Positions 8,736 through 24,369 of a stretch of DNA of 27,898 nt are shown here, one piece after another. The DNA comes from Bradymonadales bacterium (lineage in GTDB: Bacteria; Myxococcota; Bradymonadia; REDH01). Position 1 is the stretch's first letter. Every line of letters begins with the position of its first letter. Below the pieces are notes generated by a model, which saw only the letters and a program-made list of their open reading frames with translations, was not told where the DNA came from and ran no database searches. Both the position numbers and the translations under genes were made by a program. The stretch is from positions 1 to 27,898 of the forward strand of contig CANKLS010000014.1 in NCBI GenBank assembly GCA_947483645.1. Reading direction: 5' to 3'.

Positions 8736-11135
<2,400 letters not shown>

Positions 11136-19734: not shown

Positions 19735-19797
19735 TTGAACAGGTTTATTGGAAGATTTTGGCGCGGGCCCCTGAGCCTCGTTGATGTTGGAGGAAGA

Positions 19798-22700
19798 ATG
19801 GGTGCTCTGATCTCGAGTTCGGTCCGTCGTCAGCTCCTACTGCTCTTCGTCATGGCCGCCATGTATGCCTGCGCTGGCGGTGGCAGCGGATGCGGCGCTG
19901 GTGGTTGCGGCGGCTGCGGCGGTTGCGGCGGCTGCGGTGGTTGTGGCGGCGCGCCCGTCGATCCGAACGCGCCCCTCTTTGTCTACCCCGACGACGCACC
20001 GCAGGTTCCCCAGGGCGCCCAGATCCACGTGACCCAGCGCGGCTTCGACTTCCTTGGTGACAACGTCGGCACCCTCGCCGGTGGTCTCCTCGGCGGCGAC
20101 GGCGGCGTAACCTCCTGCCCCTCAGGCGGCATCCCCTTCTGTCTTCCGCCCACGGCGTTTGACACCGGAGTGGTGGGCACGGCCAACATCTGCTCCCAGG
20201 CTTCAGATGTCTGCAACGACGGTTCGCCAGGTTGCCAGCTCGAGATCTGCATCGACCCCAACCAGGTCGATATCCAGGGTCGGGGACCGAACGAGATCGT
20301 CGCTAACATCGGCCTCGGCCTCGACGAGACAATCTCCATTCGCGTGATCGGCGCGACCTGCCAGATCTCGCTGCAGGCAAACCCGCTGCCGGTCAGCGCA
20401 GTCGTTCAGTTCAATGTCGGCGCCCCTCCGGGAGAGAAGGTCGCCATCGCGGTACCGCCAGATCAGCTCGTCATCGGAACCGATGCACTCGATATCGGCG
20501 CCAGCGGCGGCTTCCTCTGCACCATTCTTAACGCGGCCAGCGGCCTCATCGGCGGCCTCGTTGCTGACCAGCTCACCGGCCCCATCACCGATGCGCTCGA
20601 CACGGCGCTCTGCACCCAGTGCGGCGCCGACAACAGCTGCCCCAGCGGCTCCACCTGCGACGCCGGTACCTGCAACCTCACGGGCACCGCGACCTGCCGC
20701 CCCATCGACCTCGGCGCGTCGGGCTCCATCGACCTCGGCGCTGCGCTCGCCTCCGTCTCGCCCGGCCTTGAGGCTGGCCTTGGCTACACCTTCAACCTCG
20801 CCAACTATGCCCGCGGCACCGGCCCCCTCGAGGGCGCTGCCCCCGGCCTCGACCTCTCCGGCCAGGTCGGCGTAACCGCCGTCGAGCCCAGCCCCTGTGT
20901 CCCCTACCGCGACCCCCCGCCGGTGGATCGCGTCCCCGCCTCGGCGGCCATCAACGCCAACGCCACACCGGCAGGCCAGCCCTTCGCCCTCGGCATCGGT
21001 ATCCACAAGGAGGTCCTCGACCTCGCAGGGTGGGGCGCCTACAACTCTGGCGTGCTCTGCCTCTCGGTTGGCTCCGACACCATCCCCCAGATCTCGACCG
21101 GCCTGCTTGCAACCCTGCTGCCGAGCCTCCGCGACCTGACCGGCGGCGCCGACCGCCCCGTCTCCATTGAGCTCCGCCCGCAGGAGGCTCCGACCATCAC
21201 GCTCGGCGCCGGCACCACCATCACGGCCGCAGATGGCACCGTCTCCATCGACGACCCGCTGCTCACGCTCAACCTGAACAACCTCAACCTCGACTTCTAC
21301 ACCTTCGTCGAAGAGCGCTACGTCCGCATCTTCACGCTCGACACCGACCTCGCGGTACCGCTGGGCCTCGATGTCACGGCCAACAACGAGATCCTCATCC
21401 TCCTCGGCGACCTCTCGGCGGCACTCACCCGCATCGAGCCCCGGAACGGCGAACTCCTCAAGTCCTCGGAGGTTGCCAACCTCTCTCGTCTGCTTCCGAC
21501 ACTCCTTGGCTCCATCCTGCCCGCCCTCACCGGCTCGCTCCTGCAGCCCATCGCCATCCCCGATGTATCCGGCCTCCGCATCCTCTTCCCCGAGGGCGCC
21601 TTCACCTCCGTGGATAGCAACCAGATGCTCGCCATCTTCGCCGACCTCGCGATTGCCCCGCCCGTCACCCCCGGCGGCCTCGTCATGCCCCTCACCCCGT
21701 CCATCGCGGGCAAGCGCCTCATCGAGACGCCCTACGCCACCCGCCGCGCGATGCTTGACCGTGCCGACCAGCTCGGCGAGCCCGTCGACCTCGACCTCCT
21801 CATCCCCACCCTCGAACTCGACATGGAGACCATGGTCCCCGGCCTCGACGAGGTGCAGCTCGACTACTCCTGGCGCTTCGCCGGCGGCCTCTGGTCGGTC
21901 TGGCAGCAGACACCCCACCTCAAGATTTCGGAGCCCGTCATGGCACTCGAAGGCAACCACAACCTCGAGGTCCGCGTCCGCAAGCGGGGCGATGGTTCCA
22001 GCGTGAGCCCCGTCACCGCCTCGACGATGGTCACAATCGATCACTCGGTGCCGAGCATCGCCATGGACCGGGTCGGCAATCAGGTTGACTTCACCGCCAT
22101 CGACACCGTCTCGAGCGCTGAGGCCCTCCTCGTCCGCTACCGCATCGCCGATGGCGCCTGGGTCACTGCTCGCGCAGCTGGTAGCATTGACCTCTCGGCC
22201 TACGAGGGTCGCTCGGTCGAGGTCGCCGTTGAGGCCACCGACGCCGCCGGTCACCGCGCCACCACCACCAAGAGCTTCCGCGTTGTGGGCGGCGGCTCCT
22301 CCGCTCAGAGCAGCGAAACGGATGCAGGCTGCAGCGCCTCGGGCAACAGCGCCGGTTCGCTTGGCGGCCTTGTCGCTCTCTTCGCCGGCATGATGCTCCT
22401 CCGTCGCCGCCGCTCGCTTGCGGTCGCCGCCTCCGTCGGCCTCGCCGCACTCGTCCTTGCCGCCTGCGGCACCGAGCCCGCCAGCAGCGCCTCGGTTGGC
22501 ATCTGTAACCCTGCCTGCGCCGCCGGCCAGATCTGTGTCGACGGCGCCTGTCAGGGTGAGCCGGACTGCACCGTAGATGCCGATTGCGAAGCTGGCTTCC
22601 GCTGCGAGGCCGGCAGCTGCGTCGCTCGCACCAGCTGCGAGACCGCCGCCGATTGTCAGGACGGTCAAATCTGTGTCGATGGCGCCTGCGTCGCCGGCAC

Positions 22701-24369
22701 CCTCTGCGCCGACGTCTCGGACTGCCCGGCCTGCGAGGGCGACCTCGCCGCTCGCTGCACCGACGGCGTCTGCGCCTGCGAAGTCGCCTGCCCGGATGGC
22801 TGCGGCGACGGCACCTACTGCTGCAACGCCACCGGCGCCTGCATCGACCTCCCTGCTGCCTGCGATGCCACGGAGTGCGAGCCCGGCTTCGATGCCGTCC
22901 CCGTCGCCGACGGCTCGGGCAACAGCGACACCTGCGAGGCCACCGTCGGCGAGTGCAACTGCGTTGCCAAGCCCCCGCTGCCGATTGGCAACTTCGGTAC
23001 CTGGACCGACTCCGGCGTCTCTGCCGATGGCAGCCAGTTCGTCGTCGCCACCTTCAACGCCACCTACGGCGACCTCATGGTCGGCGTGGTCGGCGCCGGC
23101 GATGAGATTGCCTGGGAGTTCGTCGACGGCGTGCCTAGCGACGCAGCCGTCACCGGCGACCCGAGCGGCCCCCGCGGCGGCGTCGCCGCTACCGGCGCCA
23201 TCATCGGCCGCTACGCCTCCATCGAGGTTGCCAATGACGGTGTCATCCACGTCTCCTACTACGCGCAGACGGGAGACTCCGTCCGGTCGCTCCTCTACGC
23301 GCGCGGCGTCCCCTCCACCACCGGCCACGACTGGACCCGCATCGTCGTCGACCCCAACAACGGCGCCGGCCTCTACACCGACCTCGTCCTCGACGCCGCC
23401 GGCAACCCGGGCATCGCCTACCTTGCCCCCACCATCAGCGACACTGCGGCCGTGCCGGCCCTCTACGCCTCGGAGCTCCGCTTCGCCGCTGCCGCCTCCA
23501 ACGCGCCTGCCACCGCCGCTGACTTCACCATCCATGCGCTCGACCGGTCGACCAACAGCCTCTCCTGCGGCGGCTCCTGCGCCACCGCCGAGGCCTGCCG
23601 CATCGACACCAACCTCTGCACCACGGCAGCGGCCGACGCCGACTGCGCCGGCGCCTGCACCGCCACCCAGAAGTGCTTCACCACCGACGCAGGCCCCACC
23701 TGCGCCGAGGTGGCCACCTTCTCGAAGTTCTCCCTCTTCGCCCTCGGCGCTGGCCTCTTCGCTGATGCCGAGTACTTCTCCTCGGGTGAGCTCGGCGTCG
23801 CCTACTACGACTCCATCAACGGCAACCTGAAGTACATCCGCGTCCCCACCGACACCTACACGGGAACCGCCGCTATCGTCGCGGGCGAGACCGCCGATGC
23901 CTCCGGCGCTGCCGTCGACACCGGCGATGTTGGCCGCTTCCCCGACCTCTACATCGGTACCGGAGATGAGACCTTCATCTCCTACTACGATGCCACCCGC
24001 AACGACCTGCGCCTCGCCAACATCTCGACCACCACCGACGAGCTCCTCGACGACGGTCTCCGCGACTTCGCCGGCGAGTCACAGTCCTCGCGCGTCGGCC
24101 ACGACTCCTCGCTCCTCTTCCTCGGTACCCAGCTCTCCGTCGTCTACCAGGACGCCACCGAGCACACGATCGTCGAGAAGATCCGCGGCGACAGCGGCTG
24201 GTCGGCCCCCGCGACCGTCATCGGCGGCAACCGCGGCCCCGCCTACGAGGGCGCCTACGGCTTCTACCTCGGTCAGGCCATCCCCACCTCGGGCCGCGCG
24301 CTGCTGAGCTACAAGATCAACGCACAGGCCAACCCGGTCGTTCGCACCCTCGCCGTCGTCCGCCGTTAA
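19798..24369 (+). CDS. Giant envelope protein joining a MYXO-CTERM-type protein to a Cys-rich/propeller lipoprotein
   Basis: 1523 residues from the ATG at 19798, which has GGAGG four bases upstream; the frame stays open to 19678 but that part reads as leader. Part A: signal peptide (LLLLFVMAAMYAC, C25, imperfect lipobox), five CGG repeats (C37-C49), a large domain of unknown type (about 50-640), and two beta-sandwich-like segments (about 642-830, with WSVWQQTPHLKISEP and AVEATDAAGHRATTT). Then a MYXO-CTERM-like signal: GC (844-845), hydrophobic stretch (853-868), RRRR (869-872). Part B begins at once with a second lipoprotein-like signal (SLAVAASVGLAALVLAAC, C890), Cys-rich repeats (895-1058), and a probable beta-propeller with YYD-type repeats (about 1060-1523) interrupted by a Cys-rich insert (about 1257-1308). 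No stop lies between A and B. Function unknown; cell-surface location is inferred. Confidence 0.8.
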   Translation: MGALISSSVRRQLLLLFVMAAMYACAGGGSGCGAGGCGGCGGCGGCGGCGGAPVDPNAPLFVYPDDAPQVPQGAQIHVTQRGFDFLGDNVGTLAGGLLGGDGGVTSCPSGGIPFCLPPTAFDTGVVGTANICSQASDVCNDGSPGCQLEICIDPNQVDIQGRGPNEIVANIGLGLDETISIRVIGATCQISLQANPLPVSAVVQFNVGAPPGEKVAIAVPPDQLVIGTDALDIGASGGFLCTILNAASGLIGGLVADQLTGPITDALDTALCTQCGADNSCPSGSTCDAGTCNLTGTATCRPIDLGASGSIDLGAALASVSPGLEAGLGYTFNLANYARGTGPLEGAAPGLDLSGQVGVTAVEPSPCVPYRDPPPVDRVPASAAINANATPAGQPFALGIGIHKEVLDLAGWGAYNSGVLCLSVGSDTIPQISTGLLATLLPSLRDLTGGADRPVSIELRPQEAPTITLGAGTTITAADGTVSIDDPLLTLNLNNLNLDFYTFVEERYVRIFTLDTDLAVPLGLDVTANNEILILLGDLSAALTRIEPRNGELLKSSEVANLSRLLPTLLGSILPALTGSLLQPIAIPDVSGLRILFPEGAFTSVDSNQMLAIFADLAIAPPVTPGGLVMPLTPSIAGKRLIETPYATRRAMLDRADQLGEPVDLDLLIPTLELDMETMVPGLDEVQLDYSWRFAGGLWSVWQQTPHLKISEPVMALEGNHNLEVRVRKRGDGSSVSPVTASTMVTIDHSVPSIAMDRVGNQVDFTAIDTVSSAEALLVRYRIADGAWVTARAAGSIDLSAYEGRSVEVAVEATDAAGHRATTTKSFRVVGGGSSAQSSETDAGCSASGNSAGSLGGLVALFAGMMLLRRRRSLAVAASVGLAALVLAACGTEPASSASVGICNPACAAGQICVDGACQGEPDCTVDADCEAGFRCEAGSCVARTSCETAADCQDGQICVDGACVAGTLCADVSDCPACEGDLAARCTDGVCACEVACPDGCGDGTYCCNATGACIDLPAACDATECEPGFDAVPVADGSGNSDTCEATVGECNCVAKPPLPIGNFGTWTDSGVSADGSQFVVATFNATYGDLMVGVVGAGDEIAWEFVDGVPSDAAVTGDPSGPRGGVAATGAIIGRYASIEVANDGVIHVSYYAQTGDSVRSLLYARGVPSTTGHDWTRIVVDPNNGAGLYTDLVLDAAGNPGIAYLAPTISDTAAVPALYASELRFAAAASNAPATAADFTIHALDRSTNSLSCGGSCATAEACRIDTNLCTTAAADADCAGACTATQKCFTTDAGPTCAEVATFSKFSLFALGAGLFADAEYFSSGELGVAYYDSINGNLKYIRVPTDTYTGTAAIVAGETADASGAAVDTGDVGRFPDLYIGTGDETFISYYDATRNDLRLANISTTTDELLDDGLRDFAGESQSSRVGHDSSLLFLGTQLSVVYQDATEHTIVEKIRGDSGWSAPATVIGGNRGPAYEGAYGFYLGQAIPTSGRALLSYKINAQANPVVRTLAVVRR
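19903..19950 (+). repeat. 9-bp tandem repeat coding Gly-Gly-Cys
   Basis: Five 9-bp units of the form GG[CT]-TG[CT]-GG[CT] plus a final GGC, coding CGG repeats shortly after the putative lipidation Cys C25. The bases vary at third positions, so selection seems to keep the protein pattern. Confidence 0.85.
22327..22467 (+). other. Internal junction: MYXO-CTERM-like signal followed by a lipoprotein signal peptide
   Basis: Bases 22327-22332 code the Gly-Cys pair. The hydrophobic segment LGGLVALFAGMMLL, four Arg codons, a second hydrophobic segment AVAASVGLAALVL and the lipobox LAAC (Cys codon 22465-22467) follow. Two ATG codons (22390, 22393) could begin part B as a normal 25-26-residue lipoprotein signal, but the bases before them (TTCGCCGGC) give no ribosome-binding site. 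As a single chain this would be a membrane hairpin with the Arg cluster in the cytoplasm and both large parts outside. Confidence 0.75.

Follow-up and report, generated by a model that had tools for sequence, protein, structure and literature searches.

A MYXO-CTERM signal in mid-chain, directly followed by a lipoprotein signal, suggests a lipoprotein polyprotein in Myxococcota

What does a bacterium do with a C-terminal sorting signal that stands in the middle of a protein? This question is raised by a gene of a Bradymonadales bacterium (contig CANKLS010000014.1; the whole stretch of 27,898 nucleotides that was analysed is called the window here). At 22327-22467, the gene encodes GCSASGNSAGSLGGLVALFAGMMLLRRRRSLAVAASVGLAALVLAAC, that is, GC, 23 residues including a hydrophobic helix, RRRR, a second hydrophobic helix and LAAC. 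The first part of this junction is a MYXO-CTERM: TIGR03382 scores 16.4 bits (E 0.011) on the whole protein, above its curated cut-off of 15.85, and 23.9 bits on a 47-aa junction piece; TIGR03901, with no match reported for the whole protein, passes on this piece only (21.5 bits, cut-off 20). The tag is not C-terminal, as the frame continues for 651 residues beyond the Arg cluster, and it may work at its internal position like the usual one. The second part has the features of a lipoprotein signal, namely RRRR as n-region, the h-region SLAVAASVGLAALVL and the lipobox LAAC; this signal is internal in the window gene and N-terminal in stand-alone C-terminal halves and split genes of the same family. 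A sequence-only reading of this DNA had claimed a MYXO-CTERM and then a lipoprotein signal in one frame, which is confirmed by the open frame, the TIGR03382 score and the conserved pair of cysteines. Its further proposals, that the Arg cluster doubles as the end of the first signal and the n-region of the second and that two exported proteins lie in one chain, are supported by the analyses below.

The features of the gene are collected in Table 1. The open frame extends from 19678 to a stop codon at 24367-24369; ATG 19798 is the likely start codon, and GGAGG precedes it at 19789-19793. Counted from this ATG, the junction cysteines are C845 and C890; the same residues are C885 and C930 from 19678, the numbering used here. 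A lipoprotein-like signal is followed by a BPI-like half, the MYXO-CTERM, the lipoprotein signal and a Cys-rich and propeller half, with a Gly/Cys-rich spacer between the N-terminal signal and the long first half. An N-terminal hydrophobic stretch with a final [GAS]C was found in 109 of the 110 fused database proteins with a scorable N-terminus, the sole miss being P0017, which has a late start. The window's own N-terminal lipobox, MYAC, is weak, and the lipobox status of the first half is a prediction. Opposite the gene lies an antisense open frame of 1110 aa (window 20203-23535, -), which we take as a by-product of GC-rich DNA; conservation tracks the + frame. Elsewhere, window 8736-11135 (-) encodes a 799-aa protein with a MopE-type metal-binding motif.

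Table 1 Features of the fused gene and its product, in window positions
Feature	Position	Strand	Remarks
Whole gene	19798..24369	+	1523 aa plus stop; basis: sequence, stop-free full-length homologues
N-terminal signal peptide, lipobox-like MYAC at end	19798..19872	+	Cys 19870-19872
BPI/CETP/LBP-like tandem TULIP fold, predicted	20005..21657	+	
Two Ig/FN3-like domains, predicted	21685..22293	+	Model residues 605-807
Internal MYXO-CTERM (GC, hydrophobic helix, RRRR)	22327..22413	+	Cys 22330-22332 = C885
Internal lipoprotein signal (RRRR n-region, h-region, lipobox LAAC)	22402..22467	+	Cys 22465-22467 = C930
Cys-rich stretch of second product	22465..22977	+	Sequence; many invariant Cys
Beta-propeller of second product, predicted	22987..24366	+	Model mean pLDDT 81.4, pTM 0.70

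The folds of both halves were predicted from structure models. Two TULIP domains in BPI order are present in the predicted fold of the N-terminal half, and the first product may be a lipid carrier of the BPI type. Window 20005-21657 (+) is predicted to form a full-length BPI-like bacterial fold that is nearly invisible to Pfam: PF01273 and PF02886 were each matched by 1 of the 26 family members scanned (best E 0.015 and 0.0072), PF01273 is precomputed for P0091 and P0112, and a search for a sequence-level link to solved BPI structures gave none at E up to 1. For the C-terminal half, the best Foldseek matches of the model were PLL/PHL fucose lectins (best E 2.7e-10), followed by sialidase-like and other propellers. 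A profile sequence search with this half gave no match to PLL/PHL lectins, and the likeness is thus one of fold only. Much of the junction has a pLDDT below 50 in both models, which are therefore uninformative on it.

The simplest explanation would be an artefact, that is, an assembly with a lost stop or missing bases, or a neutral fusion of recent date. Fusions confined to one genome are indeed found for other genes, such as L268, whose halves lie apart in other matched genomes. However, when the full-length query was compared with 57 relatives, long stop-free frames were found in several families of the class (a partial match in G055 contains a stop). The same junction design occurs in separate MAGs, for instance in both L003 and L004, and across the phylum. 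Three near relatives have an uninterrupted junction with few amino-acid changes (pN/pS 0.19, 0.18 and 0.00; the L004 row did not anchor and was discarded from this comparison). In an alignment of 29 rows (the window and 28 loci), the sole invariant columns of the junction are the two cysteines (columns C820 and C865), and in a second alignment, with 28 rows, invariance is complete for C930 and nearly so for C885. The recent stop loss or assembly deletion that had been offered as the plain alternative is thus refuted for the BPI family, where we give an artefact practically no weight. It had also been proposed to search each half in related genomes: repeated single-gene cases were found in the class and the phylum, as expected for a polyprotein, and close relatives do not all carry two genes, the two split genomes being nested among fused ones.

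The fused arrangement is spread widely. The N-half profile has matches, many of them weak and partial, in 171 of 282 genomes of the phylum. Of 40 loci retrieved next, two belong to the window's class and the others to other classes or families; 34 have the halves joined in a single frame, 2 have them as separate genes and 4 have only the N-terminal half. When loci and database proteins were pooled (225 sequences), 178 matched both half-profiles, near-duplicates included. A first regular expression found the junction in 172 of these, and inspection by eye found it in 4 of the 6 misses. This expression at times takes a neighbouring Cys, and a second, differently written test was designed to check that; both tests were devised after the sequences were seen. 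The second test placed both signals in one frame in 176 of the 178, the Arg cluster being followed by a hydrophobic stretch with a final [GAS]C; in the exceptions, P0069 and P0071, the first (MYXO-CTERM) helix is lost and the lipobox is kept. By the first expression, the loop between the helices has a median length of 11 residues and a mean of 5.8 basic versus 0.18 acidic residues, with a net charge of at least +2 in 170 of 172, which fits a cytoplasmic loop. In genome G006, two fused paralogues of the BPI family lie in tandem, their open frames overlapping slightly (L093 329-9522, -), and a third copy, L006, is present.

We consider it fairly probable that the gene encodes a bacterial polyprotein that is cut at both signals, by a myxosortase and by LspA. 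The chain would be exported from its N-terminal signal, with its predicted lipobox, until the MYXO-CTERM helix halts transfer and leaves the Arg cluster in the cytoplasm. The following helix would start from the same Arg cluster as an internal signal, leading to export of the C-terminal half. A myxosortase, MrtP in these bacteria, would cleave at C885; Lgt would lipidate C930, and LspA would cleave before it. If the myxosortase acted first, it would leave a near-ordinary lipoprotein precursor with one extra helix. A single translation event would yield, in the 1:1 ratio that the sequence-only reading had proposed, a lipid carrier of the BPI type, which may have a lipid anchor at each end, and a propeller protein rich in Cys, likewise anchored by lipid. 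This proposal is built on the fused frame, its conservation, the two sequence signals, the predicted folds, the protease genes of near relatives and the split relatives, and it is from these that we infer the topology, both cuts, the lipidation, the surface location and the lipid carriage.

The main rival of the polyprotein reading is an uncut hairpin, in which the two helices form a two-pass membrane anchor and the halves remain one protein with both domains outside. The short loop permits such a hairpin, and fusion is the rule, as expected if the halves act joined: in a FastTree phylogeny of the N-terminal half (156 thinned rows, midpoint-rooted for drawing only), 142 rows are fused, 12 have the N-terminal half only and 2 are split, with 8 changes required between the fused and separate states. 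Five truncated or frame-broken rows, rows under 500 model positions and rows at least 80% alike had been left out before the tree was built. However, neither an invariant Cys at two sites nor a small residue before the second one is required of a plain anchor, and the second Cys is retained where the Cys-rich stretch is missing, as in L073. Moreover, in split relatives and stand-alone halves the two signals stand at free termini. The first gene of L071 runs to RRRRRGEDQ and a stop, and 20 bases separate it from the second gene, which starts with MSKTRLALLAALAALAFGC; the two genes of L089 overlap at their stop and start codons (TGATG), and the downstream one starts with MNARTCLVGALALTLAGVANPGC. 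At both loci, the first gene stops shortly past the Arg cluster, and the second has an ordinary lipoprotein signal at its start. The stand-alone C-terminal halves P0029, P0031, P0033 and P0037 also have lipoprotein-like N-terminal signals, and twelve N-half-only proteins, including L084, L086, L104 and L106, have the MYXO-CTERM at their end. These sequences favour two working signals over a mere anchor, and we regard the hairpin as unlikely.

The position of the split genes in the tree bears on their origin. P0053, the database copy of L071, is the sister of a fused protein (99% support), and L089 falls within a clade (98% support) in which 10 of the 11 rows are fused. Since the split rows sit among fused rows, and the fused-to-split direction rests on this nesting, the splits seem to be later fissions, in which the chain was opened twice, each time at the junction and with both signals intact. 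A partner gene for the seven-row clade of N-half-only proteins was sought with P0080 in 266 genomes; no close member was found, the best match having 36% identity, to a fused gene.

Both proteases required by the polyprotein reading are encoded by most near relatives. The CPBP protease of the relatives is MrtP, with two examples at 351.9 and 393.1 bits (cut-off 250), and it scores over the cut-off in 44 of 55 relatives, including the nearest one, G001 (291.9 bits). The LspA family was found in 51 of the 55, and G001 scores 118.8 bits (cut-off 25); it is from G001 that we infer the proteases of the window organism. In the wider phylum, 199 of 266 genomes have a passing match to the myxosortase core model. 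MrtX was considered as the protease and rejected: it has matches in 55 of 57 relatives, 0 of 57 over the cut-off, and MrtP fits instead. The 11 relatives without MrtP over the cut-off are the eight f3 genomes and G033, G041 and G045; the last three have partial matches, and the eight have neither an N-half match nor MrtP over the cut-off, a co-absence that may reflect ancestry alone.

These data also bear on a reading in which one signal only is used, e.g. by an LspA cut before C930, and the N-terminal half keeps the MYXO-CTERM helix and the leftover signal as its anchor. A single cut suffices to part the halves, and P0069 and P0071 do without the first helix. Against this, the first Cys and the Arg cluster are conserved about equally to the second site, and the eight f3 genomes lack the N-terminal half and MrtP together, if not by ancestry alone. 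We find the use of one signal quite unlikely. Finally, translation might start at an ATG within the junction and give the C-terminal half by itself, as an ordinary lipoprotein; in the window, RRRR is preceded by two ATG codons in frame (MMLLRRRR...). However, among the 62 fused loci for which DNA was available, 32 have an in-frame ATG and only 5, the window not being one of them, combine a start codon with an SD-like 4-mer. As neither is conserved, we rejected an internal translation start, which appears very improbable.

The same junction is found in other proteins. A loose dual-motif scan of 1468 ORFs from 2.0 Mb of genome G011 gave 3 matches, with controls of 0.6 (shuffled, mean of 5) and 3 (reversed), and two of the three resemble polytopic membrane proteins. 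As controls can equal the matches in number, the loose motif carries little weight by itself, and the real evidence comes from conservation. The third match, unrelated to the BPI family, consists of an M23 peptidase, FG-GAP repeats, a MYXO-CTERM, a lipobox and a weakly PD40-like part. In this M23 family, all 10 fused ORFs, which come from ten genomes including that of the query, have the junction and both cysteines, and among nine other relatives of its N-terminal half that were aligned, seven end in an Arg-tailed helix, six of these with the Cys. A junction profile was run on ten genomes, with at most 150 candidates scored per genome. Fourteen of its loci were examined and comprised five new dual junctions, one BPI-family member and eight ordinary C-terminal tags; in all, the profile led to at least nine further ORFs with a MYXO-CTERM and a second signal. 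A lipobox follows the MYXO-CTERM in eight of them (L242, L247, L255, L265, L266, L267, L268 and L269). In L240 (379-2325, +), the second signal ends in AHA, like a signal-peptidase-I site, and its tail is a short protein, maybe a barrel, without Pfam match; the layout recalls MXAN_5598 of Myxococcus xanthus, discussed below.

The domains of these further ORFs differ (Amidase_3, NIDO, SpoIID with VanY, FG-GAP with cadherin-like, MopE motifs), although L255 and L266 are mutually related and L247 and L269 have a short stretch in common. L268 (303-3236, -) joins SpoIID and VanY by the junction and has another MYXO-CTERM at its true C-terminus. L265 (1349-7501, +) is an ORF of 3056 aa, with two MYXO-CTERM/lipobox junctions, behind FG-GAP/cadherin-like units, within the 2051 aa examined; if it were cut at both, one chain would give three proteins. 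Among 78 genomes, L242 and L268 had whole-length matches only to themselves, the halves of L268 being matched separately elsewhere, and they therefore look like young or lineage-bound fusions. The range of the arrangement so far is one phylum-wide family, one family in part of a class, at least several more ORFs and one ORF with two junctions. It seems to us evenly balanced whether Myxococcota make surface lipoproteins as polyproteins, with a MYXO-CTERM and an adjoining lipoprotein (or signal-peptidase-I) signal as a cutting module that can be reused.

Polyproteins of cellular origin are, to our knowledge, uncommon in bacteria. One bacterial case is the FbcH cytochrome precursor, which is cut at an internal signal peptide; FbcH and viral glycoproteins are cut by signal peptidase I or its eukaryotic counterpart. 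As in these cases, the window protein is one chain whose second product would be exported from an internal signal and released by a signal-peptidase cut. Unlike in both, the predicted enzyme is the lipoprotein signal peptidase, and the site lies directly behind a C-terminal sorting tag. The junction shares the basic n-region, hydrophobic stretch and lipobox of Lgt/LspA lipoproteins, but its signal is internal and theirs N-terminal. Should the chain be cut at both sites, it would follow that an internal signal is accepted by Lgt and LspA and that a myxosortase can act in mid-chain. Much of the phylum would then make a BPI-like lipid carrier and a propeller as a fixed-ratio pair, and the two-Cys design and the split relatives make the polyprotein reading directly testable.

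The first product can be compared with the bacterial DUF4403 TULIPs, which, in the part of Levine 2019 (PMC6791001) consulted, are full-length pseudo-dimers of the BPI type, exported and often predicted to be lipid-anchored. The N-terminal half is likewise a predicted full-length pseudo-dimer of this type, with predicted export and a predicted lipobox; unlike them, the 26 scanned members had no DUF4403 among their Pfam matches (E up to 0.1), and they match LBP_BPI_CETP weakly, one member per model.

For the junction itself, PMC11980579 was the one paper to emerge from literature searches on internal MYXO-CTERM, internal lipoprotein signals, second or internal lipoboxes and lipoprotein polyproteins, and searches on bacterial internal signal peptides and polyproteins gave nothing closer. 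In the sections of that study consulted, MXAN_5598 has a mid-chain MYXO-CTERM with exported protein on either side, its C-terminal part being an outer-membrane beta-barrel with OmpA domains; internal motifs are said to be rare, and MXAN_5598 is called atypical, with a gene fusion suggested. An internal MYXO-CTERM is thus already known, whereas the literature searched gave no case with a lipoprotein signal directly after it. The window protein likewise has exported protein on both sides of its tag; unlike MXAN_5598, behind whose tag these sections describe no lipobox, its family has a lipoprotein signal phylum-wide. Ordinary MYXO-CTERM proteins such as TraA, as presented there (PMC11980579), share with it the GC, the helix and the Arg cluster, and its near relatives have a myxosortase; it differs from the TraA type in that its tag is not C-terminal and in that its relatives have MrtP, with MrtX never over the cut-off. 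If the polyprotein reading is true, the family would provide a handle on the lipidation of MYXO-CTERM proteins, a question that the same sections leave open.
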